Source of the DNA: Thermogemmata fonticola
GTDB taxonomy: Bacteria > Planctomycetota > Planctomycetia > Gemmatales > Gemmataceae
Direction: 5' to 3'
DNA length: 64,000 bases
Assembly (NCBI RefSeq): GCF_013694095.1
Contig: NZ_JACEFB010000002.1
Location: forward strand, 1 to 64,000
Shown: positions 1 to 62,367 of the stretch, one piece after another
How positions within the stretch are numbered: position 1 is the first letter of the stretch
Layout: each line of letters opens with the position of its first letter
Position numbers and translations under genes: made by a program
Notes under the pieces: model-generated
Database searches by the model: none
What the model was told of the DNA's origin: nothing
The model's input: only the letters and a program-made list of their open reading frames with translations

Positions 1-1058
1 ATGAGTTGGTGTTGGGGCCACAGATAGAGGATGAGAGGGGGAATCGGATGAATCAGGATGGGGATGGTGTGAATGGTGAGGATCCAGGGGATCGGTATGT
101 GGCGAGTGTGGAGTTAGGGGAGTCGGGTCCGAGGGTGATCGATGCCCAATTTAGAGGTAGTAATCCGCGTATGTTTGATTCAGTTCGATTGACATTTAGC
201 GAACCAATCAAACCTAGTAGTTTTACAGAAGATGATATTGTTGAATTTACAGGTCCCAATGGGACTATATCTACATCATATACAATAGTCCCAGTGAATG
301 GAAGTAATGATACACAATTTGATATATTATTTGCAAAACAGAATAGACAAGGCACTTATAGGATGACTGTTGGTCCATTCATCGAGGACAGTTTAGGTAA
401 TTATATGAATCAAAATGGTGATCATATTAATGGACAAATCCCAGAAGATAGATTTATTTTAGAACAATATCTTGATACTTCAAAAACTAAGAGGTATGAT
501 GCTTGGAAAGTTAATCGCCCGATCCGTGATTATCGAGTGACTCGATCGGCGATAACCATTACGGAGGCCATCACGATCAGTGACTTGTCGGTTCGCGTCA
601 ATCTGAACCATTCAGCGACTGGTGATCTACGTATCAGACTGATCGGGCCGCAGAATCAATCAGTAGTACTATTCGATCGTCATGGAAAAAATGGCGATAA
701 TTTAAGAAATACATGGTTCTCAGATAGTGCTGATATCAGTATATCTCAGGGGAAACCACCTTATAATGGTAATTATAGATCGATTCAATCACTTTCTATG
801 TTCCATAATAGTTTAGCAGCAGGTAAATGGATATTGGAAGTACGCGATACCAAAAGCGGAAATGTTGGTAAGCTATTGTCATGGTCATTGGTTGTCACCG
901 GGACTATGGAAGATGGCGAAGGCGGTGGTATGGGCGGCATGATGTCTGCATTTGACAATTCCGCCTGCGTGTGGCCGGTGTACTATCTGCCGCCCTCAGC
1001 ATCGAATGGCGATCATAGCGAGGAATGGAATTGGGCAGACCCAATTGAGGTGGGCTAA
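1..1058 (+). CDS. Secreted multidomain protein, Ig-like repeats plus P-domain (5'-partial)
   Basis: The reading frame is already open at the window edge, so this is the C-terminal part of a longer protein. Two copies of an Ig-like (Big_5-type) unit are visible. Each ends in a pattern GPxIEDxxGNxMNQxGDxxNGxxPxDR, and the Asp/Asn-rich loop resembles a calcium-binding turn. From about residue 185 to 300 there is a proprotein-convertase P/homoB domain (ITISDLSVRVNLNHSATGDL, then LRNTWFSD and GKWILEVRD). A Gly/Met-rich tail follows. P-domains in bacteria are usually on secreted or cell-surface proteins, so an extracellular role is inferred, but the catalytic or main domain lies outside the window. 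Base composition changes inside the gene: the first repeat is near 50% GC and the second near 37%. Confidence 0.75.
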   Translation, partial: ELVLGPQIEDERGNRMNQDGDGVNGEDPGDRYVASVELGESGPRVIDAQFRGSNPRMFDSVRLTFSEPIKPSSFTEDDIVEFTGPNGTISTSYTIVPVNGSNDTQFDILFAKQNRQGTYRMTVGPFIEDSLGNYMNQNGDHINGQIPEDRFILEQYLDTSKTKRYDAWKVNRPIRDYRVTRSAITITEAITISDLSVRVNLNHSATGDLRIRLIGPQNQSVVLFDRHGKNGDNLRNTWFSDSADISISQGKPPYNGNYRSIQSLSMFHNSLAAGKWILEVRDTKSGNVGKLLSWSLVVTGTMEDGEGGGMGGMMSAFDNSACVWPVYYLPPSASNGDHSEEWNWADPIEVG

Positions 1059-1112
1059 AGGAACGATGCAACAAGAGTATACTGCACAGACCCCAGCGCA
1101 TTTGATATACCC

Positions 1113-1916
1113 ATGCGTATGGGGCCTGGCGAAATATACCTGATACTCTGTTTATCAGCCTTCCTAGCAGGTTTGCTCAACTCGATAGCGGGGGGTGGCA
1201 CTCTACTCACTTTTCCACCACTCGCAGCAATTCTAGATCCAGCTCTCGCGAATGCCACGAGCACCGTGGCACTTTTGCCCGGTTCGTTTGCAGGAGCAAT
1301 AGGATACCGCCGCGAGCTGGGACAATGCTGGCGCTTTACTCTCAGGATGCTGACTCCATGTGTGATCGGCGGTGGAATTGGAGCTTGGCTAGTCGGTTAC
1401 GCGCCGAATGTCTTTGCGAATCTTGTACCGTGGCTCATACTCACCGCAGCGGTACTATTTTTGGTGCAAGGTCCTGTGAATCGTTGGATTAAAAAATATA
1501 CTAAAGATCAAGATAATTCAGATGACATTAATAGAAAATATTATACAAAATATCTCATAGTAATGCTATTTCAATTTTTTGTAGCTTTATATGGTGGTTA
1601 TTTTGGTGCTGGAATTGGGATACTCATGTTAAGCTCATTAGGATATATGAATATAGGTAATATCCACAACATGAATGCCGTCAAAACATTTCTAGCAGCG
1701 GCAATCAATACATCTTCTGTTCTTATATTTGTATGGAATGATATGGTAGTATGGAAATATGCCATACCTATGGCTCTTGCTGCAATTGTAGGAGGATATT
1801 GTGGAGCGAGATTTGCCAGGTTGCTCTCTCCACATGTTGTACGCATTATAGTTATAGTTATAGCATTTGTCTTGACAGTCTATTATTTTGCTAAATACTA
1901 CTTTATCAATATATAG
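1113..1916 (+). CDS. TauE/SafE family sulfite exporter-like permease
   Basis: A 267-residue polytopic membrane protein with about eight hydrophobic segments. It has the TauE/SafE hallmarks: an N-terminal GLLNSIAGGGTLLTFP segment, and a second-half repeat around GGYFGAGIGILMLSSLGYM followed by the conserved NxxKTFLAAAIN region. Members export sulfite, sulfoacetate or related organosulfur anions, and the substrate here is unknown. Two in-frame ATGs (1113 and 1119) are possible starts. The 3' end overlaps the converging copper ATPase gene by 19 bases. The first third is GC-rich with ordinary codons. From about 1490 on it becomes AT-rich, with many ATA and AAT codons. Confidence 0.85.
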   Translation: MRMGPGEIYLILCLSAFLAGLLNSIAGGGTLLTFPPLAAILDPALANATSTVALLPGSFAGAIGYRRELGQCWRFTLRMLTPCVIGGGIGAWLVGYAPNVFANLVPWLILTAAVLFLVQGPVNRWIKKYTKDQDNSDDINRKYYTKYLIVMLFQFFVALYGGYFGAGIGILMLSSLGYMNIGNIHNMNAVKTFLAAAINTSSVLIFVWNDMVVWKYAIPMALAAIVGGYCGARFARLLSPHVVRIIVIVIAFVLTVYYFAKYYFINI

Positions 1917-4636: not shown

Positions 4637-4676
4637 CTTCTATTTCCTAACTTTTTCTTGACATTTTGATATATAG

Positions 4677-5498
4677 TTACTTTTTATCTTTAGTTGCTGT
4701 TGGCGGTGTTGCACCAGGATCGGCATAGTCGGTAGGGATTTGTATTAATTCTTTAACTGTATACGGCTGTGTTCCATTGGTCTTTCTATTGCCGTGTATG
4801 GCCCTTGCTGCCTTGATTGTTGCTGCTGTGATTGCGGGGGGTTTATCTTTATCTGCATTGTTATTCCAACTATTTCGTATATATGTAAGTACTGCTGCAA
4901 TTTCATAATCTTTCAGCACATTTCCTTGTGCTGGCATTAAACCATTATATGTACGGCCTTTTACTGTGATAGGCCCTGTGAGACCGTATAGGAGTATTCG
5001 GGCAAGACGGGCAGGGGATGCTTGCTCGCCGACAACCCATTCCGAGCCATCGAGGGGGGGAATACCTTGGGCGAGGTTTCCTTGGCCATGAGGCTGATGG
5101 CACGAGGCACAGATCGCGGCGTATTTCTGCTCACCGATTTTGATAAGCTCTGGGACGGTTTGTGGATCGGGATCCGGCACACTGACGGCGCTCCCGCCAG
5201 AACTGACTTGCCGGAGGTCACTCCGATCATAAACATCGGGGCGAAAGTCGGCGGAGTTAGTGCCCAGATAGTAGCCGCCCCAAGCCAGCAGAGCGCCAAA
5301 GATGGCAGCGACCCAGAACGGCACAGGTTCAAAGCCGTCGCGGGGTTCGGCGTGTTCACGAGCGAGTACGTCGAGCATGCGCTGGATGGTGTCCCGTTCT
5401 TCATCCGCTGGCTCGGACATCTCGCTGTCCAGGGAAGGATGAAAATTTCCGGGTTGATTTGATTTGACAATATCATTGTCATCGTGACTATTGTTCAT
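4677..5498 (-). CDS. ccoP: Membrane-anchored mono-haem cytochrome c, CcoP-like subunit
   Basis: A 273-residue protein with a short cytoplasmic N-terminus, one transmembrane helix at about 60-80 and a periplasmic cytochrome c domain. Haem is bound by CASCH (C130, C133, H134), with Met188 in NGLMPAQGN the likely sixth ligand. Its place directly after ccoO indicates the third subunit of the cbb3-type oxidase. Standard CcoP proteins carry two haems and this one has a single CxxCH. The ATG at 5498 overlaps the ccoO stop as ATGA, indicating translational coupling. The frame stays open further upstream, but that part is just the other-frame reading of ccoO. The gene symbol is given by position and architecture, and it could equally be called an oxidase-associated cytochrome c. 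Confidence 0.8.
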   Translation of the reverse strand: MNNSHDDNDIVKSNQPGNFHPSLDSEMSEPADEERDTIQRMLDVLAREHAEPRDGFEPVPFWVAAIFGALLAWGGYYLGTNSADFRPDVYDRSDLRQVSSGGSAVSVPDPDPQTVPELIKIGEQKYAAICASCHQPHGQGNLAQGIPPLDGSEWVVGEQASPARLARILLYGLTGPITVKGRTYNGLMPAQGNVLKDYEIAAVLTYIRNSWNNNADKDKPPAITAATIKAARAIHGNRKTNGTQPYTVKELIQIPTDYADPGATPPTATKDKK

Positions 5499-6316
5499 TC
5501 TTTGGCCTCCGGCAGGGGGTATTCTGCCTTGCGGAGCGAGAGAAGATAGGCGACCAGGGCCTCCGCTTCTTCGGTAGGCAGGATTTGCCAGTCCTCTTCG
5601 GGGGTGGCAAGCCAGAATTCTAACAATTGCTGTTGAGTTTCTGGGGTTGTCCAGTCGGATATTGGCTGTCCGCTTTCTCTGAGGAATCTTGCCTTGATCT
5701 GATCCCCCGATTGTTGCAGGATTGCTGCCCATTCATTGGGGCTAGGCCGCCAGCGATAGCCTGGTCGGACAGTCCATTCCCGACCCAAGGGGAGGGCTTT
5801 TTCTGACCGGGATCCCACGATGCGTTCCTTTCGGTACATGAACGCGAATGATGGCATAATGCTCCAGCTATTCAATGCACGCGGATTATAGGTGTGAATA
5901 TGTTGCCAAGTCGCGGAATAACGGCTTCCAATGTTAGCTAGATCAGGTCCAGTTCTCATTGTCCCTAACATCGTTGGACTATCGTAAATATAATCGCGGG
6001 GAACGTTACGGCGTGTACCCCACCCCCGGCGGATGTCACCTCCAGTTCTCATGATTCCCGTGGGGTCTTCCCACCAGTTCCCGAAACGTTCGCTGCGGAT
6101 TTGCTGACTGTGGCAATACATGCAACCGTTCTTCTGGTAGACTTTCATGCCTGTCCAAGCGAGGCCTTGCAAAGGACGAGGGTAAGGCTCCTCTTCCGGA
6201 CTCGTCTGGAAAGCTGGCTGGTTTTGCAATTGCCAGAAGGGAAAAAGGACCAAACCCAACCAACTCGAAGTGAATGTCAGGAGTACGCCGATAAAGAGTA
6301 TCATGCCACGATCCAT
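5495..6316 (-). CDS. ccoO: cbb3-type cytochrome c oxidase subunit II, mono-haem CcoO
   Basis: A 273-residue CcoO-type subunit. An N-terminal membrane anchor (about residues 6-28) is followed by a periplasmic cytochrome c domain with CMYCH (C65, C68, H69) preceded by GMKVYQKNGC. SQQIRSE and RTGPDLANIG are strongly typical of CcoO, and Met154 in SWSIMPSF is the expected axial ligand. It passes electrons from the upstream cytochrome to the haem-copper centre of CcoN. It starts 19 bases after the ccoN stop with an AGAGG ribosome site and overlaps the following cytochrome gene by four bases. Confidence 0.92.
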   Translation of the reverse strand: MDRGMILFIGVLLTFTSSWLGLVLFPFWQLQNQPAFQTSPEEEPYPRPLQGLAWTGMKVYQKNGCMYCHSQQIRSERFGNWWEDPTGIMRTGGDIRRGWGTRRNVPRDYIYDSPTMLGTMRTGPDLANIGSRYSATWQHIHTYNPRALNSWSIMPSFAFMYRKERIVGSRSEKALPLGREWTVRPGYRWRPSPNEWAAILQQSGDQIKARFLRESGQPISDWTTPETQQQLLEFWLATPEEDWQILPTEEAEALVAYLLSLRKAEYPLPEAKE

Positions 6317-6335
6317 GGTGACAAACCTCTGGCAT

Positions 6336-7847
6336 TTACGGCTGAAGTTGCGTTACAGGAGCATTCATGAGGCTATCGGCTTTGGGTAATTCACTCGGGG
6401 TGAGTTGTGGGGGTTGGGCGAAGAGGGTGGGACCTCCGCTGCGTTGCCGTCCCCAGCCGGCAAGATTGATGATGAACAAGATTGCAAAGGCAATGTGGCC
6501 GATAGTCATCATGGTTCCAGCAACACTTCTCAAGGCCAAGTATGGTTGTATATACATGATGATATTTGCAAAAGGGACATTGGGGTTATTCAGCATTCTT
6601 CCTTGCCACCATCCACCGATAGACAGGGCTGTAAAATATAATGTTATTCCAACTGCGCTGCACCAAAAATGCAAACGGATCAGTTTACTACTATACCATT
6701 CTCTTCCAGTCAAGCGCGGGATCATGTAATAGTAGAGTCCGAAGAATATCATGGCCACAAATCCATAAGCACCGAGATGAGCATGGCCGACAGTATAATG
6801 TGTAAAATGAGCTACTTCACTAAAGTCTTTGAGCGATTCGATGGAGCCTTGGAAACTCACTGCTGTGTAAGCTATGGCTCCGAAGACGGTAAATCTAAGG
6901 GCTGGGCTGTATTTCAAGCGGTGGAAGTGACCAATCATTGTCATGTGATGATTGATAGCGACAGCGATAACGGGAATGAACATCATCATACTGCCGACTG
7001 TGCTGGCTGTAGCGAGCCATGCTGGGATAGGACCGCCGATGAGATGATGTATACCGGCCCAGGAGTAGAAGAGTGCCAAAGCCCAGAACCCTGTGATACT
7101 GAGATAATAGCTATGAATAGGACGGCCTAAAATTTTGGGTATGATGTAATAGGCGGTGCCGACTCCGATGGGTGTTAGCCATAGACCCAGGAAGTTATGA
7201 TTAAACCACCAGTTTACAACAGGTTGTATGACTCCTGTTGCTGGTATCCAGAAGATCATCAATGTAGCGACGGTATAAAGCCAGGGGAACCAAAAGACAG
7301 CGGCGAGGATGTACCATTGTGTGACGTATACGTGGGCTTCACGGCGTCGGCGGAAGGTGGCGACCACCCATGCCGTGACCAGGCCGACACCGGCGACGAA
7401 GAAGGGGTGGGCATAGGTCGGAGCATCGAGCCATTCCACGGATGTACCGTCACCGAGCAGGATGCCGGCGACAGCGAGCGTAGTGGCGACGTTCCACAAG
7501 GCACAAGCGAGGTAGAGCATCCGTGGGTAGATCAATTCGACGCGGGCCAGGCGGCACATGAGCCAGAGGCAGGCGGCCATGGCAGCCAGGGAAGACCAGC
7601 CCAGAGCGACGGCTTGGAGATGGGCCATCCGCACCCGGCCAAAGGTCCAGATGGCGCTTCCCGTGAGGAAATAGGGACTGTGGAGCTTGAGGGAAGCTAG
7701 CAAGGCGAGAAGCGAGCCGACGAGGAGCCAGAAGAGGGCGGTGGCACTAAACGCCAGGACCGGCCCGCGGCAGGATCGATCGATGGTCACGCGTTCCTGG
7801 GCGGCCTGGAGGCGCAGATGATCTCGTGCCAGTATAGTGACAGCCAT
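6336..7847 (-). CDS. ccoN: cbb3-type cytochrome c oxidase catalytic subunit I, CcoN
   Basis: A 503-residue polytopic haem-copper oxidase subunit that reduces O2 to water. Recognisable ligands are His76 (RMAHLQA) and His357 for low-spin haem b, His355 for high-spin haem, and His217 plus His267/His268 (WAGIHH) for CuB. Tyr261, in the helix carrying WAG, matches the cbb3-specific crosslinked tyrosine. The segment that usually reads TFEGPMM reads SFQGSIE here, so the normally conserved Glu is Gln333. The start has an AAGGGG ribosome site and follows the ccoS stop by three bases. The 5' half is about 65% GC in a sampled line and the middle about 47%. Confidence 0.93.
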   Translation of the reverse strand: MAVTILARDHLRLQAAQERVTIDRSCRGPVLAFSATALFWLLVGSLLALLASLKLHSPYFLTGSAIWTFGRVRMAHLQAVALGWSSLAAMAACLWLMCRLARVELIYPRMLYLACALWNVATTLAVAGILLGDGTSVEWLDAPTYAHPFFVAGVGLVTAWVVATFRRRREAHVYVTQWYILAAVFWFPWLYTVATLMIFWIPATGVIQPVVNWWFNHNFLGLWLTPIGVGTAYYIIPKILGRPIHSYYLSITGFWALALFYSWAGIHHLIGGPIPAWLATASTVGSMMMFIPVIAVAINHHMTMIGHFHRLKYSPALRFTVFGAIAYTAVSFQGSIESLKDFSEVAHFTHYTVGHAHLGAYGFVAMIFFGLYYYMIPRLTGREWYSSKLIRLHFWCSAVGITLYFTALSIGGWWQGRMLNNPNVPFANIIMYIQPYLALRSVAGTMMTIGHIAFAILFIINLAGWGRQRSGGPTLFAQPPQLTPSELPKADSLMNAPVTQLQP

Positions 7848-7850
7848 AGG

Positions 7851-8093
7851 TCATTCCCCTTGGATCGCCTCGTGCTGCGGATCGTGAGCTGGCGTTATGG
7901 GACGGTGATCCGGGAAGAAGTCGGTGGGTTCGCCCACTGGCTCATCGGCATCGAAAATGGACAGAGCACCCCGCTGGAAATTGTCGAATTGGCCATTGCG
8001 GAAGGCCCAGCTCAGAGCCAGGACAGCAGCGCTCCCGAAACATAGGATGGAGCCAAAGACGGTTAGTAATACGGCAATATCTACAGATTCCAT
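7851..8093 (-). CDS. ccoS: cbb3-type oxidase assembly protein CcoS
   Basis: An 80-residue protein with one N-terminal transmembrane helix (about 8-30). The CcoS signature follows: a Trp-Ala-Phe-Arg-Asn-Gly-Gln-Phe-Asp motif and a downstream AxxIFDADEP segment. CcoS is needed for insertion of haem and copper into cbb3 oxidase in other bacteria, and here it lies just upstream of ccoN, three bases apart. The Pro/His-rich tail after residue 55 is not conserved in the family as far as I know. Confidence 0.85.
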   Translation of the reverse strand: MESVDIAVLLTVFGSILCFGSAAVLALSWAFRNGQFDNFQRGALSIFDADEPVGEPTDFFPDHRPITPAHDPQHEAIQGE

Positions 8094-10945: not shown

Positions 10946-13054
10946 CTAACGTTCGATAACAGCCACATGGTGCCCTCCCAGAGATTGCAGGAATTCGCGG
11001 GTATGATCGACATCGAATTTCGGGTCCGTCGCTTCGATCGTGAGGAAGAAGCCGTCTTGTGTGACGCGGTGGAAAGTTGGGTGAGCGTCCAGGGGATGGA
11101 ACAGGCGCGGCAGGCCGCACAACCCGATCAGGGCGAATAGGGTGAAGAAGCCGGCGAAAAGCACCGTCATCTCGAAGAAGACCGGGACGAAGGCCTCCCA
11201 GGAGCGGTATTCTTTGCCGCCTACGATGGTGGGGTAGTAGTAGGTCATCAGGTAGAACTGGAGGGAGACAGCGGTGGCGAGTCCAGTCAGGGCGCCGGCC
11301 AGGGTGAATAAGGGGAGGCGGCTGCGCTGCCGTCCAATGGCTTCCTTCATGCCGTGGACGTAAAAGGGGGTCCAGGCATCGAGGTGAGTGTAACCATGCT
11401 GCCGGGCGGTTTGAGCGGCCTGGAGCAGTTGTTGGGCGTTGGCAAATTCGGCGACAGCGCCCCACGGTTGCCCGCTTCCCTCCGGTGTAGGCAGGAAGGC
11501 CGGCACGGGTTCCTCGGCCGGTGGGATCGTGGTTCGCGGTGGAGCAGGGGGGCCGTATCGGGCGGCCAAGGCGTGATCGGCCGTCGGATAGCGCCCTGCC
11601 TCATCCCGAAGATACTGCTGGGGAGGACCGAAGCGATAGTGAGGATTGGCCATAGGGAGGACGCTTTTGACTTCTGCCAGCGCAATCATCGGCAGGAAGC
11701 GGATGAAAAGCAAGGTCAAGGTGAAGAACAACCCGAAGTCGCCGAGCATCTGGAGCCAATCGACCCAGGTCGGGTAGTAGCGGCCCCAACTGGCGGGCAA
11801 AAAGTCATGATGGAGGGATTGCACGATGATGACGAAGCGTTCATACCACATGCCGACGTTGATGCAGGTGACTATCAGGAGGACAAACCAAGGGGTTTGC
11901 CGGCACCAGCGGACCCAGAAGAGCTGAGGCAGGAGCAGATTGCAGGAGATCATCACCCAATAAGCCCAGGTGTAATCCCCCGTCCAGGCCCGATTGACAA
12001 AGGTTTGCCATTCGTAGGGATTTCCCGAGTACCAGGCGATGAACAATTCCATGCCGTAGGCGTAGCCGACCAGTGAGCCGGTGGCTAACAGGAATTTGCA
12101 CATGACATCGATGTGCTTGGTGGTGATGAGGTTGTGCAGTTTGTAGGCGGCACGGGCGGGGATAAGGCATTGCAGGACCATGGCAAAGCCGCCAAAGATG
12201 GCCCCGGCGACGAAATAGGGGGGAAAGATGGTTGTGTGCCAGCCAGGCAGGATGGAAGTGGCGAAGTCGAAACTGACCACCGAGTGTACGGAGAGCACCA
12301 GCGGCGTCGAGAGGCCGGCGAGCATGAGATAGGCGACTTCATAGTGCCGCCAATGCCGGGTACTGCCACGCCAGCCGAGGGAGAGCAGGCCGAAGAGAAC
12401 TTGCCGCCGCCGGCTTTTCGCTCGGTCCCGCAAGGTCGCTAGATCAGGAATCAAGCCAACGTACCAGAAGATCAAGGAAATGGTGAAATAGGTGCTGACG
12501 GCGAACAAGTCCCAGAGCAATGCCGAGCGGAAGTTCTGGAAAATGTGGTTCGCATTGGGCAAGGGGAACATGAACCAGGCATACCAGAATCGCCCGACGT
12601 GGATGCCGGGGTACACCGCCGCACAGAGGACGGCGAAGATGGTCATCGCCTCGGAAAACCGATTGATACTGGTGCGCCACTTTTGCCGGAAGAGAAAGAG
12701 GATGGCGGAGATCAGCGTTCCCGCGTGGCCAATGCCGATCCAGAAGACGAAATTGGTGATGTCGAAGGCCCAATTGACGGGATTGTTGGAACCCCAGACG
12801 CCGACGCCGGTCGAGATCAGGTAGGTGGCCGCGAGCAGGCCGCCGGTCAGAAGTCCCGAGGCGATGAGGAAGGCCGGCCACCACCAGCCGGGCGGAGATT
12901 GTTCGGTGATGGAGCTGATCTGATGGGTCAACGTCTCGTAAGTGTCCGGTCCCCAGACGAGAGGAATGCGAGGAAGCGGCTCTGGGAAGGGCGAGGGGTG
13001 ACCCAGCGCTTCCTGGGTAGGTGTTTCAGTGTGAGTAACGGCGTTGGAACTCAT
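10946..13054 (-). CDS. actCD: Alternative complex III fused ActC-ActD subunit
   Basis: A 702-residue fusion. Residues 1 to about 490 are ActC, an NrfD/PsrC-type integral membrane protein with about ten helices. Typical stretches are [28 protein letters not shown], and the pair [17 protein letters not shown] and [13 protein letters not shown] linker of about 60 Pro-rich residues leads to ActD (DUF3341) at about 530-702, with its own two helices and the [15 protein letters not shown] segment before a C-terminal alpha/beta part. ActC is thought to bind quinol and couple to proton movement. ActD is usually a separate gene. No stop or frame slip is seen between the parts. Confidence 0.9.
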
Positions 13055-13091: not shown

Positions 13092-16000
13092 TTAGGTCAG
13101 CTCCGGGTTAGGGTTGCGCAGCCGAGGCAAATAGCTGGTCCGAGGTTTAGTATTCAGTTTTCCGAGCAAGGCGTATTCTCCGGCGCGGAGTTTAGCCGCG
13201 GCTACGGCGCTGTGGGGGTCCAGCACGTTGCCGAAGATGATCGCCTGGGTGGGACAAACAGCCTGGCAAGCCGTTCGCACCAAGCCATCCGGTACGATGA
13301 CCCGCCCCCAACGGTCCAGGTCGTAGCCCGCCGATTTCGGGTCCTGGGGTTTGCGGTAGGCGGAAGCGGGTCCATCGGGGCGAAAGCTGGCATCGACGGG
13401 GATGGTCCGCCGTCCCTGAGCGACTTCGGCGGCGGCGATTTTGGCTCCATATTTGGCACGTTCGAGGCGCTGGACGCAGTAGGTGCATTTTTCCATGACG
13501 CCGCGCATGCGGACAGTGACATCGGGGTTTTTGAGCATGCGGAGGGATTCGGGAAGTAAGGAGCGCGTCAGGGCGGCGCCTTCGGGAGTCAAAGGCGTGG
13601 GCACCCGCAAGGCATCGAGGTGGCGTTTGTTGTAATCGAACCAGTTGAAGCGGCGGGCTTTGTAAGGGCAGGCGTTAGCACAGTAGCGGGTTCCAATGCA
13701 GCGATTGTACACTTGCAAATTCAGGCCTTCGGGACTGTGCACGGCCGCGTTGACTGGGCAGACCTGCTCGCAGGGCGCCTGTTCGCAATGGAGGCAAGCC
13801 AGCGGCTGGGTAATCACGCGCGGGTCCGCGTCGGCGGTCTGGCCGTCGGTGGAAGAGAAGTAACGGTCAATGCGCAGCCAGTGCATCTCACGATTGCGCT
13901 GGACTTCGTACTTGCCGACCACCGGAATGTTGTTTTCCACCTGGCAGGCGAGGACACAGGCCGAACAGCCGGTGCAGAGGGACAGATCGATGACCATGCC
14001 CCACTGGAAGGGGCTATCGAGGCGTTCGGGCCGGGCGAGATCGAGAGGGAAGCGGCGCTGTTTATCGCGGGCTGGCATGGGAGGCGGGGGCACTTGGCCA
14101 TAGCCTGCCTGGTAGCCGCGGCGGAGGTCCTCTTCGCTCAGATGGCCATCGGGCGGCAAGCCGAGCAGGGGGACGGACGGCGTGGAGGCGGAGGAACTAT
14201 GCCCTGAGCTGTGATCCGCAGACGAGTTGTGATCCGCAGAAGAATGGCTGCCCTCCGGTGCCCTGGAGTGGGACGGCGGCTGCCGGAGCTTGCTCAGGTC
14301 GACTTCCCGCACAATATCCCGCCCGTGGGGGATGACGCCGTGTTCCTGGGTGGTCACCAGTGTCGCTCGGCGGCCCGTTTTCTCCAACCGCACCGAGGTG
14401 AGGATGTACCGGGCTTGTGAGGTTCGCAGGGGGAAGACATTGGTGCCGCCGCCGGTGATGTGCGCCATGCGGAGTTCCCCGCACTGGCCGAAATGCAGGG
14501 CGAGGGAGTAATCCGCTTGCCCCGGCAGCACAAACACGGGGATTTCCACCTGGTAGGAATCGTGGCGGAGGCGGATGACATCGCCGGTGGTCAGGCCAAA
14601 GGTTTGAGCCGTTTGCGGGCTGATCAGAGCGGCATTATCCCACACCAGTTTACTGATCGGATCCGGCAGTTCCTGGAGCCAGGCGTTAAAGAGGTAGCGG
14701 CCATCGTAAAGCGAGTAGTCGGGATGGAAGGTGACTTCCAGGGCGTCCCGCTGCGGAGCGGAAGGGAGGGAAGAAGGCAAAGCGCGTTGAATGTCGGAAA
14801 GCGGGCGCAAGGTGGGACGTAAGGAGGAGCGGCGCTGTTTGTCCTGCTCCGGGGGGAGGAAGCCGAGTTGCTTGTAACGCTGGAAGGCGGCGGAGAGTTG
14901 GGGATCATCCGGGGCCAGACCCGCGCGAGCGGCAAAAACGGTGCGGACGAGTTCATAAGCGGCGGAGCGGGCAGACACGTATGAGGTCACCGGCTTGCCA
15001 TCACGCGGATGCGGGAACTGGGTCAATAGCGCCAGAATCTCCAGGGCGGAGCGGCCTCCGCGGGGTGGAGCTTCCTGTTCAGCGGGTGAAGGAAGGTTGC
15101 TGAGGAGCGGTTCGATCAAGGGTTGGATGCAACAGAGGGTGCCATCGCTGCTTTCGGTATCTCCCCAGCTTTCCAGAAAGTGGGACAGCGGCAGATGCCA
15201 GTGGCAGAGTTCGGACGTCTGATCGTAGTACAAGCCGACGCGGATAGTGGTCCTGGCCTGACGCAGGGCTGCGGCGAATTGCAGATCGGCCGGGGCCGTC
15301 AGAACGGGATTGCCGCCGAGGATGACCAAGGTATCGATGCGGCCTGCACGCAGGGCGTCGGTCAAGGCGGGCAGACCGGCTTCCAGCATTTCCGGCGGAG
15401 GGGGACGGAACTCCCAGAGCGAGGAGGCTTCCAGGGCGGCATTGAGGGTATGTGCCAGGGCATGAACGTAGGCCGGCTGGCGATAGCCGGGCAGAATGGC
15501 ACAGCGTCCCCGGTGCCGAAGCAGGTCTCGCGCCAGCGGTGCCAGCCACCGGCGGGCTGATTCCGGCAACTCCCGTCCCGACGCTTCGTCGACCCTCGCG
15601 GGTAGCTCCGGTAGCTTGCCCGGCAGAGAGGGCGACAGCTCGCGCGTCAAGGCCAGCAGAAAGGCCCCCACCAGGCTGGCCGGCAGGCGGAGGCGGTGAT
15701 CGGCCATAAAGCCGGTGAGTGTGCCGGTGGATTCCACCACGTAGAGGCGGTTAAACTGCTGCGGGGGTCCCTGCCGCCGGCGGGCGAACCGGCGGACCTG
15801 CATCAGGCTGTCCAACTCGATTCCCAGGCAATCGCTATCCAGCACGAGCAGGCAATCGATTTTTTCCAAATCCGGCGTGGGCAGCAGCGGTTGCCCGAAG
15901 GCGATCTCGGTCCCGCGCAGGACTTCGCCGTAATCGACCGGCTCGAAGGTGTACCACTGCGCCTGCGGCCAATTCTGGCGGAGATGCTCCCGAATGCGGC

Positions 16001-16604
16001 GCAAAGCCGGGGAAGGGACCTGCTCGGTTAGCACAGCGAAGCCCTGACCCTGAGCGGAGCGGAGGCGGTCGGCCAGGATACGGGCGAAGCGGTCAAAATC
16101 GTCCCACCGGCGGGAAACACCCCGTTCCACAACGCTGCTGCTGCGCGGCGACATCACCCGATCGGGACTGTACAAGTCCAATATGGCCGCTTGAGCGAAG
16201 GCATCCGTGCTACCCAAACTGGCCGGATGCCGCGGATGCCCTTCAATCTTCGTGGGCCGCCCGTCGTGACTTTCCACCAAAAGCGGCAGGGAGCCGAAGG
16301 GGCGCGGCTGAGCTGTAGCGTAAAATGTGGGCAGCCCGTGAACCACATGCCCCACGCGGTCCTCAGGAACAGCGGAGTAGGGGACGATCGGCAGGTCCGG
16401 ACGTCGGCAACTGGCCAACGTGGCGGCAGCAGCACCGGCCAGGGTATAGGTCAGAAACTGCCGGCGATGCCAATGGGCGGAGAGAGCATCCTCGTCCCGC
16501 GGTTCGGCCAGACCAGCGCCAGCGTAAACATTCACAAAACCGGGAAACTCCTCCACAGGCGCCGGAGCTATCGCCTCTCTGCGAAGATAATCAGGAGGAT
16601 TCAT
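13092..16604 (-). CDS. actB: Alternative complex III molybdopterin-like/iron-sulfur subunit ActB
   Basis: A 1170-residue ActB. An N-terminal twin-arginine-like signal (RRQFL at 47-51, then a hydrophobic stretch ending LASC) precedes a molybdopterin-oxidoreductase-like domain lacking obvious cofactor ligands. A C-terminal ferredoxin module follows. Its Cys groups are [35 protein letters not shown] and a CTYC/CQAVC set. In the third group the second Cys is Thr, so three [4Fe-4S] plus one [3Fe-4S] cluster are expected, as described for ACIII. An insertion with a Ser/His-rich linker (near [13 protein letters not shown]) joins the two halves. The ATG at 16604 is preferred (AAGGGA upstream). A GTG at 16658 is in frame but has no ribosome site. 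Confidence 0.9.
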
Positions 16605-16699
16605 CGTCGCACCGTTCCCTTCGCTCCTGCTGGCAGCCTTGCTTTGAGTCCGGCTCACCTTCGGCTTCGGTTAGCAGGGGTGATCGCTCCGATCATCCC

Positions 16700-17365
16700 T
16701 CAACGATGACAACCCTGGCAGTGCATCGGAGCCTGCACCTGCAACTGCTGCTTGATATCGTAGCCAATGTCCAGCCGGGGCTTGTTCCCGTCCGGCTTCC
16801 AGGATAAATTGGTCACCTGCTCGACCGGACGGAGATGCTTCTCTGGCTCATGATGGCATTGCAAACACCAGCCCATCGACAGCGGCTGATCATGGCGCAC
16901 CATCGGCATCTCGTTGACCGGACCGTGGCACGAGACACACGAGACCCCTTTGTTCACATGCACAGCATGATTGAAATAGGCATATTCCGGCAGCTTGTGT
17001 ACTCGCTTCCAGGCCACGGGCTTGCCGGTCTCGTAACTTTCCCGGATGAGCGTCAGAAGCGGACTGTTGCCTTTAACATTCGCCTTGCGGGGGTTGTGGC
17101 AATTCATGCAGACCTGGGCGCTCGGAACCGTGGCATGCGGAGATTGAAAAACGTGCTGGTGGCAGTAGGTGCAATCCATTCCCAGCCGGCCCACATGCAA
17201 CTGATGGGAAAACGGCACCGGCTGCTCCGGCATGTAGCCCACCCGCGTATAGCTCGGCAGAGCGTAATAGTACCAGGCGAAGACGAACAACCCTAAGCCG
17301 AGCACGGCACCCACCGCCGCCTGGCGCACCTGCACATCCCGCGATCGACGGAAGATCACCGGCAC
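16700..17365 (-). CDS. actA: Alternative complex III penta-haem cytochrome c subunit ActA
   Basis: A 221-residue protein with one N-terminal membrane helix (about 17-35) and five CxxCH haem motifs: CTYCH 65-69, CMNCH 86-90, CVSCH 143-147, CLQCH 167-171 and CQGCH 216-220. This matches the penta-haem ActA of ACIII, which receives electrons from the Fe-S subunit and passes them to ActE. The GTG at 17365 is chosen because a strong AGAAGGGGG ribosome site lies about nine bases upstream. The frame is open further, but that part has no family resemblance. It is the first gene of the ACIII-cbb3 series. Confidence 0.92.
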   Translation of the reverse strand: MPVIFRRSRDVQVRQAAVGAVLGLGLFVFAWYYYALPSYTRVGYMPEQPVPFSHQLHVGRLGMDCTYCHQHVFQSPHATVPSAQVCMNCHNPRKANVKGNSPLLTLIRESYETGKPVAWKRVHKLPEYAYFNHAVHVNKGVSCVSCHGPVNEMPMVRHDQPLSMGWCLQCHHEPEKHLRPVEQVTNLSWKPDGNKPRLDIGYDIKQQLQVQAPMHCQGCHR

Positions 17366-17470
17366 GGAACTTTTCCCCCTTCTGCAACGCCAGCCGGCTC
17401 CACCAGCCCGGCTGTGTTGTTCATGCCCCACGGAGCCTGATCCTGCCGTATTCCCGCCGGAATAGCCGCT

Positions 17471-17488
17471 TTGTGAAACTTTTCACAA
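17471..17488 (-). promoter_or_regulatory. Rex-type operator upstream of the ACIII-cbb3 operon
   Basis: TTGTGAAACTTTTCACAA is an exact match to the Rex consensus TTGTGAA-N4-TTCACAA. Palindromy extends two more bases on each side (17469-17490, ten-base arms, two-base centre). It lies 105 bases upstream of the actA GTG and immediately after the -10 box of a candidate promoter, as expected for a repressor covering the transcription start. Rex is known in other bacteria as an NADH-released repressor of respiratory and fermentative genes. The regulator is not encoded in this window. Confidence 0.75.
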
Positions 17489-17491
17489 AGT

Positions 17492-17519
17492 AGTCTATCA
17501 CCCTGTGTCCTGCCAGCAA
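17492..17519 (-). promoter_or_regulatory. Candidate sigma70-type promoter for actA
   Basis: On the minus strand TTGCTG (17519-17514) and TAGACT (17497-17492) are separated by 16 bases. The Rex-like palindrome begins three bases downstream of the -10 box. This was identified by eye only, and planctomycete promoters are poorly defined. Confidence 0.35.
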
Positions 17520-53182: not shown

Positions 53183-53778
53183 AACACCTCTCGGTCGCGT
53201 CATCAGGTTGTGGGAATTTCAGTTGTTCCAAAGGTGGAAACGATCTCCGGCGGGAGGAAAACTTATCGGGAGGTCTTTCCCGGATGGCAACTGCGGCAAC
53301 CACAGAGGACACAATTATGGCTACCGCTAAAGCGGCATGACTCTTTCGGAATGTCGTCCCTATTTTACTCGACTCGGGAGAGAAAGGCCAAGGAAAAGTC
53401 GGGAATTGCAAGGGTCGAATGGAAGGAAGATTGGGATGTATGGTTTGACAGTGGGATGTCATGGAAATCCTGGGAAGAAATGCCGGGTGGCGAGAGAGGT
53501 TAGAGGCATGAGTTGGCAATAAGAGTCAGGGGGGTGGCGGCGGGATCGTACTCAAAAACAACAGGCGAGCAACATCGGTCGAAACGAGGGGTAAAACTGT
53601 CCATCCCCAAAGGAAGTTTTGGTGGTTCCGAGTAGTAAGTGGGGAGGGCGATAGCGGCAGCGGCACCGGGGCTTTGTGAAAAATTTCACAACGGTGGGTT
53701 GCCGCCGGCTGCGGAGGTTCCGACAATACGCATCGTTCCACACGACGACAGAGATGCCGTGGGCATCAGGCGGCAGTA
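53183..53778. other. Divergent intergenic region before the ATP synthase operon
   Basis: About 600 bases between the PSCyt1 gene and the first atp gene. It contains the Rex-like operator (separate entry) and a weak TTGCCG-N17-GACAAT pair at 53699-53727 that could be the atp promoter. The short frames at 53210-53522 lack ribosome sites and resemble no family. Confidence 0.6.
53674..53691 (+). promoter_or_regulatory. Rex-type operator upstream of the ATP synthase operon
   Basis: TTGTGAAAAATTTCACAA is an exact match to TTGTGAA-N4-TTCACAA, the Rex consensus, 87 bases upstream of the first atp gene. It shares both seven-base arms with the site upstream of actA, differing only inside the central four bases, which argues for one regulator at both operons. 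Confidence 0.75.
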
Positions 53779-54039
53779 ATGCCGGAGGAGCGTCGAGGCC
53801 GTTCAGCGCCATGGGGGCTGCTGGTGGCTGGCTCGGAGATGGTGTCGTTTACCCTCGCCGGGCTAGTGGTGGACTATTTATTCGGAACTTTGCCGGTGTT
53901 TACGGTGGGGCTGACACTGCTCGGAGTGCCGGCAGCGTTTTTTCTGCTGGTGCGGTTGAGTCGGGCTACACCGGGGCCGGATGCAGCGGGGCCGGAATCG
54001 CAAGGCGGCCGGGAGTCGCAGCGGGAGCCGAAGGCGTGA
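53779..54039 (+). CDS. AtpZ/AtpI-type small membrane protein of ATP synthase operon
   Basis: An 86-residue protein with two membrane helices (about 12-32 and 38-62) separated by the short loop DYLFGTLPVF, as in AtpZ/AtpQ-type proteins that precede atp operons. Related proteins are linked to Mg2+ or Ca2+ handling or assembly of the c-ring. The C-terminal tail is hydrophilic and Glu/Gly-rich. Its stop overlaps the next start as GTGA. Confidence 0.75.
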   Translation: MPEERRGRSAPWGLLVAGSEMVSFTLAGLVVDYLFGTLPVFTVGLTLLGVPAAFFLLVRLSRATPGPDAAGPESQGGRESQREPKA

Positions 54040-54530
54040 AAACCTTGCTCGTGCAGGTGGTCGGCTGGCCGCTGCTCGTCATCGGCCTACTGGCGAGCGG
54101 CGCCGCAGTTGGTGTTGACCCGCGTCATGCCTGGGCAGCAATTGTCTCGTTGGCTCTGATACTGCCGCCGGGTGTGGCGGCGGTGTGGCTGGTGCGACAA
54201 TGGCGAGGCTCCCCGTTTGGGCGTGTGGCCGCGGTTGTGCTAGGCAGTGCCCTGCGGTTGCTCACTGGGTTTGGCGGCGGCCTGGTGGTTTTCCTCCTTC
54301 TCCGCCGACCGCTGGATTGGGACCCCCTCACCTTCTGGGGATGGCTTTTGGGGACATACCTGGTGGCGTTGACCGTCGAAACCGTGGTGCTCGCTCGAGA
54401 TGTTGCCCAAGGCGCTGGAACAGCCCCGCCTTTTGGCCCTGATGCAGAGCAGGCGGTCCATAGGGTTGTTTGTGGGGTAGCAGGAACGGGACGCGAAATC
54501 GCGGCCAATGTCCCCCCAACGTCCCCGTGA
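54036..54530 (+). CDS. atpI: AtpI-like membrane protein of ATP synthase operon
   Basis: A 164-residue protein with four likely helices, in the normal position of atpI between the small protein and atpB. The GTG start overlaps the preceding stop (GTGA), and the longer open frame upstream simply runs through the preceding gene in another frame. Sequence similarity to AtpI is weak by eye, so the symbol rests mainly on size, helices and place. AtpI assists c-ring assembly elsewhere. Confidence 0.6.
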   Translation: MKTLLVQVVGWPLLVIGLLASGAAVGVDPRHAWAAIVSLALILPPGVAAVWLVRQWRGSPFGRVAAVVLGSALRLLTGFGGGLVVFLLLRRPLDWDPLTFWGWLLGTYLVALTVETVVLARDVAQGAGTAPPFGPDAEQAVHRVVCGVAGTGREIAANVPPTSP

Positions 54531-54545
54531 CATTGAGGCCCAACG

Positions 54546-55409
54546 ATGGCCGATGCTAATCGAAAATTCAACCCCTTTGAACATGTCGCGGATAGCGACA
54601 CCTTCCACATTTTCGAGACAGCCGGGATTGAAATTCACGGAGTGGCGTATGCTGGCATCCCGCTGAAATTCATCATCCTGATGACGGTCTGTGCCATCGT
54701 GGTGGCAGGGATGCTGATTTGGCTTGGCCGTAAGATGCGGACAGGAGAGCCGCCGACGGGCAAGTTGTGGAACCTTGTGGAAAGCCTGGTGTTTTTCGTG
54801 CGCGACAAGATTGCCCGGCCAGCTTTGGGAGAAAAGGAAGCGGATGACTACCTCCCCTATCTGACGACCCTCTTCCTGTTCATCTTCGCCATGAATCTCA
54901 TCGGCATGGTGCCGTTTTTGGCTTCGCCGACCGCCTCGATCATGGTTACCGGTGCCTTGGCGTCAGTGAGCTTTGTCGTGATTCATGCCTCCGGCATCCG
55001 CGCCCATGGGGGACTGCTACCCTACCTGAAAACTTTCATTCCGCACATCCATCTGGAAGGCGGTCTAGCCCTCCAACTGTTTGCCGCAGTGCTGATTGTG
55101 GGGATGGCTGTCTTAGAGTACCTGACGGCGTTCATTCGCGTCTCAGTGCTGGCGATCCGGTTGTTAGCCAACATGCTGGCTGGGCATACGGTCTTGTATG
55201 TGATCCTCTTTTTCATCGCCCTAGTCGATCACCCGCAATACAAGATTCCGATTGCGCAGGAATGGATGTTCTGGGTGGTGGCCCCATTCAGTGTCGCCCT
55301 GGTGACAGCGTTGAGTTTGCTGGAGTTATTCATCGCGGGCCTCCAGGCATTCATCTTTACGTTTTTGACAGCGGTGTTTATCGGCTTAGCGAAACATCCG
55401 CCCCACTGA
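54546..55409 (+). CDS. atpB: ATP synthase F0 subunit a
   Basis: A 287-residue polytopic stator subunit forming the two half-channels for protons. The essential Arg is Arg205 in VLAIRLLANMLAGH, and the last helices with LSLLELFIAGLQAFIFTFLT are typical. It starts 15 bases after the previous gene. Confidence 0.95.
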   Translation: MADANRKFNPFEHVADSDTFHIFETAGIEIHGVAYAGIPLKFIILMTVCAIVVAGMLIWLGRKMRTGEPPTGKLWNLVESLVFFVRDKIARPALGEKEADDYLPYLTTLFLFIFAMNLIGMVPFLASPTASIMVTGALASVSFVVIHASGIRAHGGLLPYLKTFIPHIHLEGGLALQLFAAVLIVGMAVLEYLTAFIRVSVLAIRLLANMLAGHTVLYVILFFIALVDHPQYKIPIAQEWMFWVVAPFSVALVTALSLLELFIAGLQAFIFTFLTAVFIGLAKHPPH

Positions 55410-55504
55410 TTGAGGAGAGCAACAACCCGGCGGCGACGGGTAGCCGACCGGACGCATGATTGCCACAATAGGACAATCCAACATCCTTTGGGAGGTAATG
55501 GACC

Positions 55505-55807
55505 ATGCGAGTTGTCACGGTACTGGTGCTGGCCCTGCTGGGAGTCTTGAGCACGGCAGCGCCGCTGTTCGCCCAAGGCACGACGACGAATTATCCCGGC
55601 TTAGGGGCTGGCATCGGGATGGGGCTGGCTATTGTCGGGATCGGCATCGGGATCGGTCTCGTGGGTTACGCGGCCCTCAGCGGCATTGCCCGCCAGCCGG
55701 AACAGGCGGGGGCCATTCAGGGAGCTATGTTCATCCTGGCCGGTCTTGTCGAAGGAGCAGGAATTATCGCATTGGTGCTGTGCCTGTTGCTGCCGCTCAT
55801 CGTGTGA
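55505..55807 (+). CDS. atpE: ATP synthase F0 subunit c
   Basis: A 100-residue rotor-ring subunit. An extra N-terminal hydrophobic segment ending LFAQG looks like a cleavable signal peptide, then the two-helix hairpin has a Gly-rich first helix, the loop ARQPE (62-66) and the ion-carrying Glu83 in LAGLVEGAGIIAL. The absence of the polar Na+-ligand set around this Glu (EGAG rather than EST/ET) points to proton coupling. A GGGAGG ribosome site precedes the ATG. Confidence 0.95.
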   Translation: MRVVTVLVLALLGVLSTAAPLFAQGTTTNYPGLGAGIGMGLAIVGIGIGIGLVGYAALSGIARQPEQAGAIQGAMFILAGLVEGAGIIALVLCLLLPLIV

Positions 55808-55968
55808 TGCGAGGCACCAGCGCTGGGTGTGAGACACCAGTTGGGGCTGGAAGGAAAAATTCCCTTATCGAAACCCCGGCGGCTGTCGGGCAGATGAGGT
55901 GCGAACCCCAACAACCCAATACGGCCGATCACACAGGCACGGGCTTACTCACTCACGGGAATGTTCCT

Positions 55969-56664
55969 ATGCGATCGCTCATGATTGCGCTTTTAGCCGG
56001 GATCATTGGACTGAGTGATATTCATCGGGTTTTTGCCGATGAAGCACCCGGTCGGCCGAGTCCCCCGGCTCATGCGGCGCCCACCGAGGTTACGGCTCAG
56101 CAGGGGAGTCACACGGCAACGGCGGGGCATCAAGGACATCACCAAGAAGACAAGCTCGGCTTTCTCGGACTGAAGCGTTACGATCTGGGTATCTACACGC
56201 TGGTGGTCTTCGGTTTATTGGTGCTGATCGTCAGCAAATATGCCTGGCCGCACATTCGCGAAGGTCTGGAGAAGCGCGAGGCGAACATTCGGGCTGCCTT
56301 GATGGAGGCGCAAAAGGAGCGTGACGAAGCCAGGACGCTGTTGGCTCAAGCCCGGAAACAGTTGGATGACGCAGCGATGCAGGTCCGGGCGATGCTGGAG
56401 GAAGCCCGCCGGGATGCGGAGGCCCTACGAGCCGCCGAACGGGAAGCCGGAGCGCGGGAGGCCGCCGCGGAACGAGAGCGAGCCAGGCGGGAAATTGCGG
56501 CTGCGCGAGACGCAGCCCTGGCGGAAATCTACGACCGGGCCGTAGAACTGGCCGCTCTGCTCTCCTCCAAAACCCTGGCTCGCAGCATCACACCGGAGGA
56601 CCACCGCCGCTTGTTGGACGAAGCCGTCGCCGAATTGCAGCAAACCAATCCGACAGCGGCCTGA
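55969..56664 (+). CDS. atpF: ATP synthase F0 subunit b
   Basis: A 231-residue subunit longer than the usual 160. A signal-like N-terminus and a His/Ala-rich linker precede the membrane helix (about 73-93, LGIYTLVVFGLLVLIVSKYAW). The long Glu/Arg/Ala coiled coil forms the peripheral stalk. The ATG at 55969 is the first plausible start. The gap to atpE (161 bases) has no strong ribosome site. Confidence 0.9.
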   Translation: MRSLMIALLAGIIGLSDIHRVFADEAPGRPSPPAHAAPTEVTAQQGSHTATAGHQGHHQEDKLGFLGLKRYDLGIYTLVVFGLLVLIVSKYAWPHIREGLEKREANIRAALMEAQKERDEARTLLAQARKQLDDAAMQVRAMLEEARRDAEALRAAEREAGAREAAAERERARREIAAARDAALAEIYDRAVELAALLSSKTLARSITPEDHRRLLDEAVAELQQTNPTAA

Positions 56665-56800: not shown

Positions 56801-57496
56801 GTGACGCCAGCCGACGGGGTGCAAGTGCTGTTCCCTCCGGACGTGCCTGCCGAACAGCAGGAGCGCTTGCAACGTTATTATCTGAGCAGTCTGCGCGGTG
56901 TAGAGGGTGGGCCGTGGGGCCGGCTGCCACGGATCTACGCAGAGGCTTTGCTGGCCGCAGCGGATGCCCAGCAAGTCGCCGCCGCGGTGGCTGACGATCT
57001 GGATACCCTCGTCCAGGACGTATTTGCCCAGGTCGAGGGGTTGGAGGCGTTCTGGGCCAGTCCCGCGGTGAGCCGCCGCCGCAAGGAGGAATTGATCCTG
57101 CAATTGTTTGAAGGGAAAGCGGAACCGCTCTTTGTGGATTTCCTGCGCCTGCTCAATCGCAAGGACCGCCTTAGCCTTCTTCGGCCTGCGGCGCTAGCCT
57201 ACCGGACCCTGCTGGAGGATCGGGCCGGCCGCCGACGCGTGATTGTGGACAGTGCGGCTCCCTTGGATCAAACCAGTGCCCAAGCCCTCGCCGGGGCCAT
57301 ACAGCGCTGGACGGGGGGAACGCCGGTCCTCATCGTGCGTATTCGCCCGGAGCTGATCGGCGGCGTCATTGTCCGTGTCGGCGACCGGGTCTTCGATACC
57401 TCCCTCCGAACACGACTCCAAACCCTACGCCATCAACTACTCACGCGAGGAAGCCATGAGATTCAAAACCGACGAGATCGCTTCTGTTCTGCGTGA
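56801..57496 (+). CDS. atpH: ATP synthase F1 subunit delta
   Basis: A 231-residue stalk subunit connecting F1 to subunit b. The [18 protein letters not shown] start and the [14 protein letters not shown] and [24 protein letters not shown] segments are typical, the last written here as the core [18 protein letters not shown]. About 40 residues are added at the N-terminus. The GTG start has GAGGGGAG upstream. The 3' end overlaps atpA by 41 bases. Confidence 0.9.
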
Positions 57497-59174
57497 AGAA
57501 CTTGCCCAGTTCCGCACGCAAGTGGATACCCGCACAACCGGCCGGGTCCTGGAAGTCGGCGACGGAATTGCCCGTTGCTACGGCCTGTCCGAAGTGATGG
57601 CCGGCGAACTGATCGACTTCCCCGAAGCGGGAGTCAAAGGCCTGGCTTTCAACCTGGAAGAAACTTCGGTCGCCGTCATCATCCTGGGCGATTACCTCAA
57701 GGTGCGCGAAGGGATGGAAGTCCGCACCACCGGCGAGCTGTTGTCCGTGCCTGTCGGTCCCGCACTCATTGGCCGGGTCGTGGACCCGCTCGGCAATCCC
57801 CTCGACGGCAAGGGGCCAATCCTGGCGACCCGGCGCCGCCCGGTCGAGTCCCCAGCGCCCGGAGTGGTCGAACGCCAGCCGGTGAAAACCCCCCTCCAGA
57901 CCGGCATCAAAGCGATCGATGCCATGACTCCGATCGGCCGCGGCCAGCGCGAACTGATCATCGGCGATCGCAAGACTGGCAAGACCGCCATTGCCATCGA
58001 CACCATCATCAACCAGAAGGAAGAGAACGTCATTTGCATTTACGTGGCCTGCGGACAGATGGAATCCAAGACGGCGGCGGTCGTGGAAAAACTGCGGGAG
58101 CACGGGGCGATGGACTACACGATTGTTGTTGTCGCCTCGTCCTCCGATGCCGCCCCCTTGCAGTACATCGCCCCCTACGCGGGCTGTGCGATGGCCGAAT
58201 ACTTCATGTACGAAGAAGGGCGAGACACCCTCTGTGTGTATGATGATCTGTCCAAACAGGCGGCTGCCTACCGGCAACTCTCCCTGCTCGTGCGGCGGCC
58301 GCCCGGACGGGAGGCCTACCCCGGTGACATTTTCTACTGCCACTCCCGCTTGCTCGAACGAGCCGCCAAACTCGCGGAAAAATACGTCATCGTCCCAAAA
58401 GATGCCGATGAAAGCCAAGTGCGGGCGGATTGGGGGGTCAACAAGCGGAGTAACCCCACGGAGCGGCGCGGACCGGGGGATGAGGGCATGGTTTACACCG
58501 GTCCTGGCGAATTCGCTGGTCTGCGGCAAGCCCAGCGAGACCTGCAACACTTCCCCGATTGCAAAATCGCACGTGTCATCGGCAGCGGCGGCTCCCTGAC
58601 CGCGCTCCCCATCATTGAAACCCTGGAAGGCGAAGTGTCGGCCTACATTCCCACCAATGTCATCTCGATCACCGATGGACAGATTTACCTGCAACCCGAC
58701 CTGAAAAATGCTGGTGTGCTCCCGGCTGTGGACGTTGGTATTTCCGTGTCGCGCGTCGGAGGCAACGCCCAAATCAAGGCGATGAAACACAAGCTGGTCG
58801 CCGGCGGCCTCAAGCTGGCTTTGGCTCAGTTCCGCGAACTCGAAGCCTTCGCCCAGCTCGGCACAGAACTGGACAAAGTCACGCAAGCCCAGTTGGAACG
58901 CGGCTACCGGATGGTGGAAATCCTCAAGCAACCGCAGTACAAACCCATGCACGTCGTGGACCAAGTCATGATCATCTACGCCGGCAACAGCGGTGCTTTG
59001 GACAAAATCGAGCGTAGCAAAGTCAAAGCCTGGGAGGAACAATTCCTCACCTTCATGCGCGAACAGAAACCGGAAGTCCGCCAGTTGCTCATGAAGGAAA
59101 AAGACCTGACCCCGGAGATCATTGACAAACTCAATGCGGCCATTGCCGAGTTCCAGCCCCAGTTCAAAGCGTAA
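57456..59174 (+). CDS. atpA: ATP synthase F1 subunit alpha with large internal insertion
   Basis: A 572-residue subunit, against about 500-515 usual. P-loop GDRKTGKT at 170-177, then the Gln/Arg region [19 protein letters not shown] and [10 protein letters not shown]. Between AAKL and [12 protein letters not shown] lie 71 residues (307-377, 58374-58586) where other bacteria have about 5-17. The rest, including [16 protein letters not shown] and the C-terminal helical domain, is normal. The ATG at 57456 has GAGGAAG upstream and lies inside the end of atpH. Confidence 0.95.
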
Positions 59175-59317: not shown

Positions 59318-61821
<2,504 letters not shown>

Positions 61822-61872: not shown

Positions 61873-62367
61873 ATGGCTGACACCGTACCCGAACCGACCG
61901 TACAATCTGCCGTGGAGCACACTCTCATGCCGAGCGAAGCCACGGAAATGGAGGACGCCCGCCATGACCGCGTCCGCGTCACTGTGGTGACACCGGAACG
62001 TGCAGTGCTCGACACCAGTGCGGAAATGGTTGTCCTGCCGCTTTACGATGGGGAATGGGCGGTGCTCTCCGGACATGCGCCGTTCGTGGCTCGACTTGGT
62101 GCGGGAGAATTGCGCCTCAAAAGCGGCGGTGCCATCTCGCAGCGCTGGTACGTCGAATTCGGTTTCGTGCAGGTACGTCAGGATGTTGTCACCCTGCTGA
62201 CCGAGCGGGCCGTTCCGGCGTCGGAGGTGACGCCAGCTCTGGCGGAACAAGCGCGTGTGGAAGCAGCTTCCCTGCCGGTCGGTACGCCTTCTGAACGGGC
62301 CAGCAAAGCTCGAGCGCGGGAACGTGCCGCCGGACTAGCCAAAGTCGCCGCCCGCAATACCGGCTGA
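61873..62367 (+). CDS. atpC: ATP synthase F1 subunit epsilon
   Basis: A 164-residue subunit. After a 32-residue non-conserved leader the beta-sandwich domain begins (VRVTVVTPERAVLDTSAEMV, then GEWAVLSGHAPFVARLGAGEL and WYVEFGFVQV). A short helical tail follows that may inhibit ATP hydrolysis. It is the last gene of the atp operon. Confidence 0.9.
   Translation: MADTVPEPTVQSAVEHTLMPSEATEMEDARHDRVRVTVVTPERAVLDTSAEMVVLPLYDGEWAVLSGHAPFVARLGAGELRLKSGGAISQRWYVEFGFVQVRQDVVTLLTERAVPASEVTPALAEQARVEAASLPVGTPSERASKARARERAAGLAKVAARNTG

Follow-up and report, generated by a model that had tools for sequence, protein, structure and literature searches.

An 18-mer palindrome (TTGTGAAAAATTTCACAA) at positions 53674-53691, separated by 87 bases from the ATG (53779) of the first atp gene, is very probably (a probability of about 0.88, judged from sequence) the operator by which the single Rex of this genome controls the F1F0-ATP synthase operon. 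The window, i.e., the whole 64-kb stretch of DNA that was analyzed, lies on contig C2 of a 4.81 Mb genome (97% complete) from the family Gemmataceae (Planctomycetes). A search with AtpB gave named relatives that belong to Gemmataceae or to related planctomycetes, namely the MAG SKYG125, at 89% identity in AtpB, one Planctomycetia MAG and three from Fimbriiglobus. The predicted operator and the genes that follow it are:

53674-53691, no strand: predicted Rex operator of the ATP synthase operon; exact Rex consensus, kept before atp in relatives
53779-54039, + strand: atpZ-like first gene, 86 aa (PF09527, weak, 23 bits, below cut-off)
54036-54530, + strand: second gene, in the atpI position, 164 aa; no Pfam or NCBIfam match
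54546-55409, + strand: atpB (subunit a; PF00119)
55505-55807, + strand: atpE (subunit c; PF00137)
55456-56664, + strand: frame with atpF (subunit b; PF00430 at residues 247-374; true start further in)
56801-57496, + strand: atpH (delta; PF00213)
57369-59174, + strand: atpA (alpha; PF00006, PF00306)
59318-60226, + strand: atpG (gamma; PF00231)
60262-61821, + strand: atpD (beta; PF00006)
61873-62367, + strand: atpC (epsilon; PF02823)

The 164-aa protein encoded between atpZ and atpB shows 52% identity to its counterpart in a sister genome.

Exact operator matches in the window and in the whole genome

The palindrome follows the dyad of the Rex operator (ROP), TTGTGAA-N4-TTCACAA, with a centre (AAAT) that is A/T-rich as usual in ROPs, and it is situated in the promoter region of a respiration-linked operon, before atpZ and beside a predicted promoter that is conserved. 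Its position and its distance from the gene are exactly those given by the original prediction, which had also placed the same arms 36 kb away and both copies upstream of energy-conserving operons. The twin palindrome (TTGTGAAACTTTTCACAA) was indeed found 36.2 kb from the atp copy, upstream of actA in a cluster for alternative complex III (ACIII) and an oxidase:

17471-17488, no strand: predicted Rex operator of the ACIII/oxidase cluster; exact consensus, found before actA in 15 Gemmataceae loci
16700-17431, - strand: actA-like multiheme cytochrome c (PF14522, PF14537)
13092-16658, - strand: actB-like Fe-S protein (Fer4 domains, QrcC/QrcB-like)
10946-13054, - strand: fused NrfD/ActC and ActD (PF03916, PF11821)
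4677-7847, - strand: cbb3-type oxidase genes (COX1, FixO and cytochrome c subunits; PF00115, PF02433, PF13442)

The cbb3-type oxidase genes continue the ACIII cluster downstream in the same direction, which is seen as gene order only. Two further features of this cluster are that the ActC-like NrfD and ActD domains are joined in one 702-aa frame and that G+C content drops from about 0.60 to 0.39 (positions 1-4000) and 0.50 (4001-8000). The low G+C at the end of the cluster that holds the cbb3 oxidase and a P-type ATPase suggests acquired DNA.

No third exact match is present in the 64-kb window, where the next best site has 3 mismatches, consistent with the earlier claim that only two 14-of-14 arm matches occur there. 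Perfect 7+4+7 palindromes of any sequence number five in the window, and only the two Rex-type ones have their arms in common. Markov models of orders 1-3 trained on the window give 0.9-1.3e-4 exact sites expected per window and a probability of approximately 4-9e-9 for two or more; the view that chance is an unlikely origin is thus borne out, two sites being observed against about 1e-4 expected.

Extending the count to the whole genome, with the search tool's reversed-pattern control and the window-trained Markov models as the source of expectation, yielded three exact matches, one match with one mismatch and eight with two mismatches. The models predict 0.007-0.01 exact sites in 4.81 Mb, and the reversed-pattern control gave three matches at two or fewer mismatches and no exact match in this genome. 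The palindrome count against a composition-matched expectation that had been proposed as a check therefore stands at 3 against about 0.01, and equally good palindromes scattered in numbers inside genes, which would speak against an operator, were looked for genome-wide and not found. The third exact site is located outside the window (C6:50000), 31 bases 5' of the start of nuoA, which is followed by nuoB. Since they precede nuoA, actA and the atp operon, the perfect sites flag complex I, the ACIII cluster and ATP synthase, and a single redox sensor thus seems to be linked to the respiratory chain as a whole.

Weaker matches were not retained. The one-mismatch site, which lies between pheA and dnaK, was set aside as near chance level; neither it nor the eight two-mismatch sites have a recognizable respiratory operon downstream, several are inside reading frames, and their numbers are near those due to chance. 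A broader scan (TTGTG-N6-CACAA with 2 mismatches) returned 20 matches compared to 21.3 by chance, and such loose matching is uninformative because the two counts are the same.

The Rex regulator and the distribution of its predicted sites

Rex is a homodimer that combines a winged-helix domain with an NAD(H)-binding Rossmann domain. When bound to NAD+, each subunit reads one TTGTGAA arm; as the NADH/NAD+ ratio rises, NADH alters the dimer and Rex is released from DNA, which is established for the family. The genome that carries the operators also encodes a single bona fide rex gene (C1:339975-340646), whose product has both family domains (PF06971, DNA-binding, 48.6 bits; PF02629, CoA/NAD-binding Rossmann, 80.6 bits), scores 240 bits against the NCBIfam Rex subfamily (cut-off 126) and matches Thermotoga maritima Rex in the PDB with 151 bits. 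In the T. maritima protein, Arg48, Lys49, Arg60 and Gly61 read the operator (PMC8836258); the aligned residues here are Arg, Arg (a conservative replacement), Arg and Gly, three of the four being identical. The T. maritima Rex-DNA complex (7WB3, PMC8836258) is thus that of a homologous protein whose main DNA-contact residues are conserved here, although its operator and target differ from those in this genome. No solved structure of the planctomycete Rex itself was among the matches listed.

Among 95 Gemmataceae genomes, 63 exact sites were found in 44, whereas the reversed-pattern control was present in one genome. The great majority (57/63, two of them, at contig ends, being assigned by identical operator sequence only) precede complex I, ACIII or bc-type complex III, ATP synthase or NDH-2: 30 lie before nuoA, 15 before actA and 6 before atp, one is 83 bases upstream of NDH-2, and one genus has five sites with one shared operator sequence, for which the three readable contigs lead into a Rieske/cytochrome b operon. 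Because this genus has a bc-type target, the predicted site can sit on complex III of either type (ACIII or bc). The other six sites precede none of these operons; at least three of them fall within reading frames, and two are in genomes that yielded no rex.

Occurrence of the sites follows that of rex. When each operon is represented by its best upstream site, Gemmataceae with rex have a site with two or fewer mismatches before nuo in 43/51 cases versus 8/30 for those that lack it (P = 3e-7) and before atp in 44/53 versus 12/29 (P = 2e-4), and in the 297 genomes of the class an exact site is present in 95/169 rex-containing versus 14/128 rex-lacking genomes (P = 1.5e-16), relatedness being uncorrected in these comparisons, whose P values overstate significance because the genomes are not independent. 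Outside Gemmataceae the corresponding figures are 59/118 and 8/102. A few rex-minus assemblies do have sites (G020, G047, G062, G065 and G068), which counts against a Rex operator; most of these are fragmented, and four have rex-bearing congeners.

In a first set from outside Gemmataceae, all 14 sites examined are directly before nuoA. Other families have exact sites before nqrA-like genes in four loci (L292, L293, L301 and L306, translations read by eye), before nuoA in L303 and, in one genome (L296), before an atp operon. Exact sites also adjoin CBS-domain-like genes in other planctomycete families (L295, L297, L299 and L307, by eye), and one intergenic region (L298/L309, G190:C2:760632-760675) holds two exact operators whose starts are 26 bases apart.

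This distribution bears on two other explanations of the palindrome. As the operator centre is A/T-rich and located just upstream of a promoter, it might be a chance palindrome or an AT-rich upstream promoter element that needs no regulator; however, only about 1e-4 sites are expected per window, the sites are conserved at the same operons in dozens of genomes, and two rex-minus genera (G033 and G093) have lost the operator but retained the atp promoter, which argues against a mere promoter element and leaves this explanation with a negligible probability. It could also be the site of a CRP/FNR-family regulator, given that the consensus TGTGA-N6-TCACA is contained in the 18-mer (a similarity of half-sites) and that one weak match to HTH_Crp_2 (28.7 bits) is present in the genome. 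This reading is disfavoured and appears very unlikely: the sites co-occur with rex across the class, their targets are NADH-linked (nuo, NDH-2) like those of known Rex regulons, and conservation extends to the outer T/A and the inner A-T, as it does in Rex sites. Across 101 sites there is hardly any variation in the outer T/A, in the GTGA/TCAC core or in the inner A-T step, whereas position 2/17 drifts to C/G, sometimes in both arms at once.

A related palindrome (TTTTGAATTTTTTTACAA) is conserved 640-720 bases upstream of atpB in the rex-minus genus g36 (L163, L164, L166, L167 and L169); it may be what is left of a Rex operator, or a different regulator may bind there.

On the strength of the operators, their conservation before the same operons and their co-occurrence with rex, all of which are read from sequence, the sites before nuo, act and atp form one predicted Rex regulon. 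The coordinated NADH-dependent control of proton pumping and ATP synthesis that had been proposed for the two window sites gains support from the single rex gene, the conservation and the co-occurrence, from which we infer that Rex binds these sites and responds to NADH. The predicted coordination is wider than first proposed because complex I is included.

Comparison with characterized Rex regulons

The kind of regulon predicted here is already known, since Rex control of nuo and atp has been proven in Streptomyces avermitilis, whose Rex directly controls atpIBEFHAGDC, nuoA1-N1 and ndh2 (PMC5355995) through the same motif (TTGTGAANNNNTTCACAA) as here. The footprinted atpI site of that species (TTGTGATACGGTTCACGA; PMC5355995) has a right arm ending in CGA, which is common in Gemmataceae too, whereas the arms in the present genome are perfect. 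The additional targets also differ: cydA1B1CD and rex-hemAC1DB in S. avermitilis (PMC5355995), an ACIII or bc complex here. As rex-hemAC1DB is a Rex target, rex is autoregulated in S. avermitilis; in contrast, rex has no operator with two or fewer mismatches in this genome, a point against the present reading. The Staphylococcus aureus Rex consensus (TTGTGAAW4TTCACAA) is identical to the sequence found here, although the paper describing it deals with anaerobically induced genes and leaves ATP synthase unmentioned (PMC2883068), whereas the present targets are respiratory complexes and ATP synthase.

Our search, which most subscription journals lay outside, found no papers on Rex in Planctomycetes or on Rex together with ACIII, and the planctomycete Rex regulon and its ACIII arm seem to be undescribed in the literature searched. 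Reportedly, a comparative analysis of Rex regulons was carried out in a 2012 study. Compared to known Rex regulons, what is new is the broader target set and the unusual geometry at atp. The predicted regulon is concrete and testable, and it belongs to a phylum on which the search turned up no Rex literature.

Predicted promoter geometry and the likely direction of regulation

A generic sigma-70 scan missed any promoter on the + strand of the atp region, since it required 9 of 12 matches; the atp promoter was recognized only by aligning the upstream regions of relatives. The predicted promoter boxes are:

53699-53704, + strand: predicted -35 box TTGCCG of the atp promoter, located where relatives have TTGAC(T/G) or TTGCC(A/G)
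53722-53727, + strand: predicted -10 box GACAAT of the atp promoter, an xAnAAT box in relatives
17492-17497, - strand: candidate -10 box TAGACT of the act promoter; the same box with a TTGCCA -35 box in sister genome L119

In 52/56 atp loci, the TTGAC(T/G) or TTGCC(A/G) box begins 24-26 bases and the xAnAAT box 46-48 bases past the operator start, so that the spacing between operator and promoter is constant within 2 bp, compared to at most seven boxes at any one position with shuffled flanks. With the boxes so placed and transcription predicted to start at about 53734, the operator spans approximately -60 to -43 and abuts the -35 box from upstream. It overlaps neither predicted box, which counts against the preferred explanation. 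The 7-8 bases between operator and -35 box vary in sequence among genera. In S. avermitilis, the atpI operator instead covers the -35 box and spacer. At act, the -10 box begins 16 bases ahead of the operator in 12/15 loci, a distance that is 9 bases in the sister genome, and the operator therefore covers the predicted start site. The arrangement at nuo varies, and several genomes have the left arm TTGTGA at the expected -35 position. Operators at act and at some nuo promoters are thus in what would be classical positions for repression.

The same Rex would be expected at the operators before nuoA, actA and atp, so that one NADH signal would switch complex I, ACIII and ATP synthase, and perhaps also the cbb3 oxidase genes next to ACIII: these operons would be held down when NADH is scarce and released when it accumulates. 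Repression at act could arise from coverage of the predicted start site, whereas for atp, given an operator at about -60 to -43, it would have to work by blocking the upstream contacts of RNA polymerase. We infer that Rex most likely acts as a repressor at atp as well, since it represses atpI in Streptomyces, although the direction is not proven by sequence.

The opposite direction has also to be considered, namely that Rex activates atp, with NAD+-bound Rex at about -52 contacting RNA polymerase beside the -35 box and ATP synthase being regulated opposite in sign to nuo and act. Such a role would agree with an operator whose distance upstream of -35 varies by no more than 2 bp in 52/56 loci, with the variable sequence of the 7-8 intervening bases and with the contrast to act. 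However, Rex represses atpI in S. avermitilis (PMC5355995), only indirect activation by Rex is described in the literature found, -52 is no usual place for an activator, a repressor bound there could also block upstream polymerase contacts, and the start site is a prediction only. Activation is therefore rather improbable, and repression at atp remains the preferred reading. A more general proposal, which we regard as possible but doubtful, is that a single Rex governs all of oxidative phosphorylation in Planctomycetes, with a geometry that differs between operons (a start-site block at act, contact with RNA polymerase from a constant place some 52 bp upstream at atp), by which the same NADH signal could act with different strength or opposite sign on ATP synthase versus the electron transport chain. 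If the upstream atp geometry reflects something other than plain repression, it would represent an unusual role for Rex; otherwise, the Streptomyces finding would be extended to a distant phylum.

A further observation concerns the nuo loci, where a terminator-like CCTCGAC...GTCGAGG hairpin with a T-run is located directly upstream of the operator in many genomes (L194-L217).
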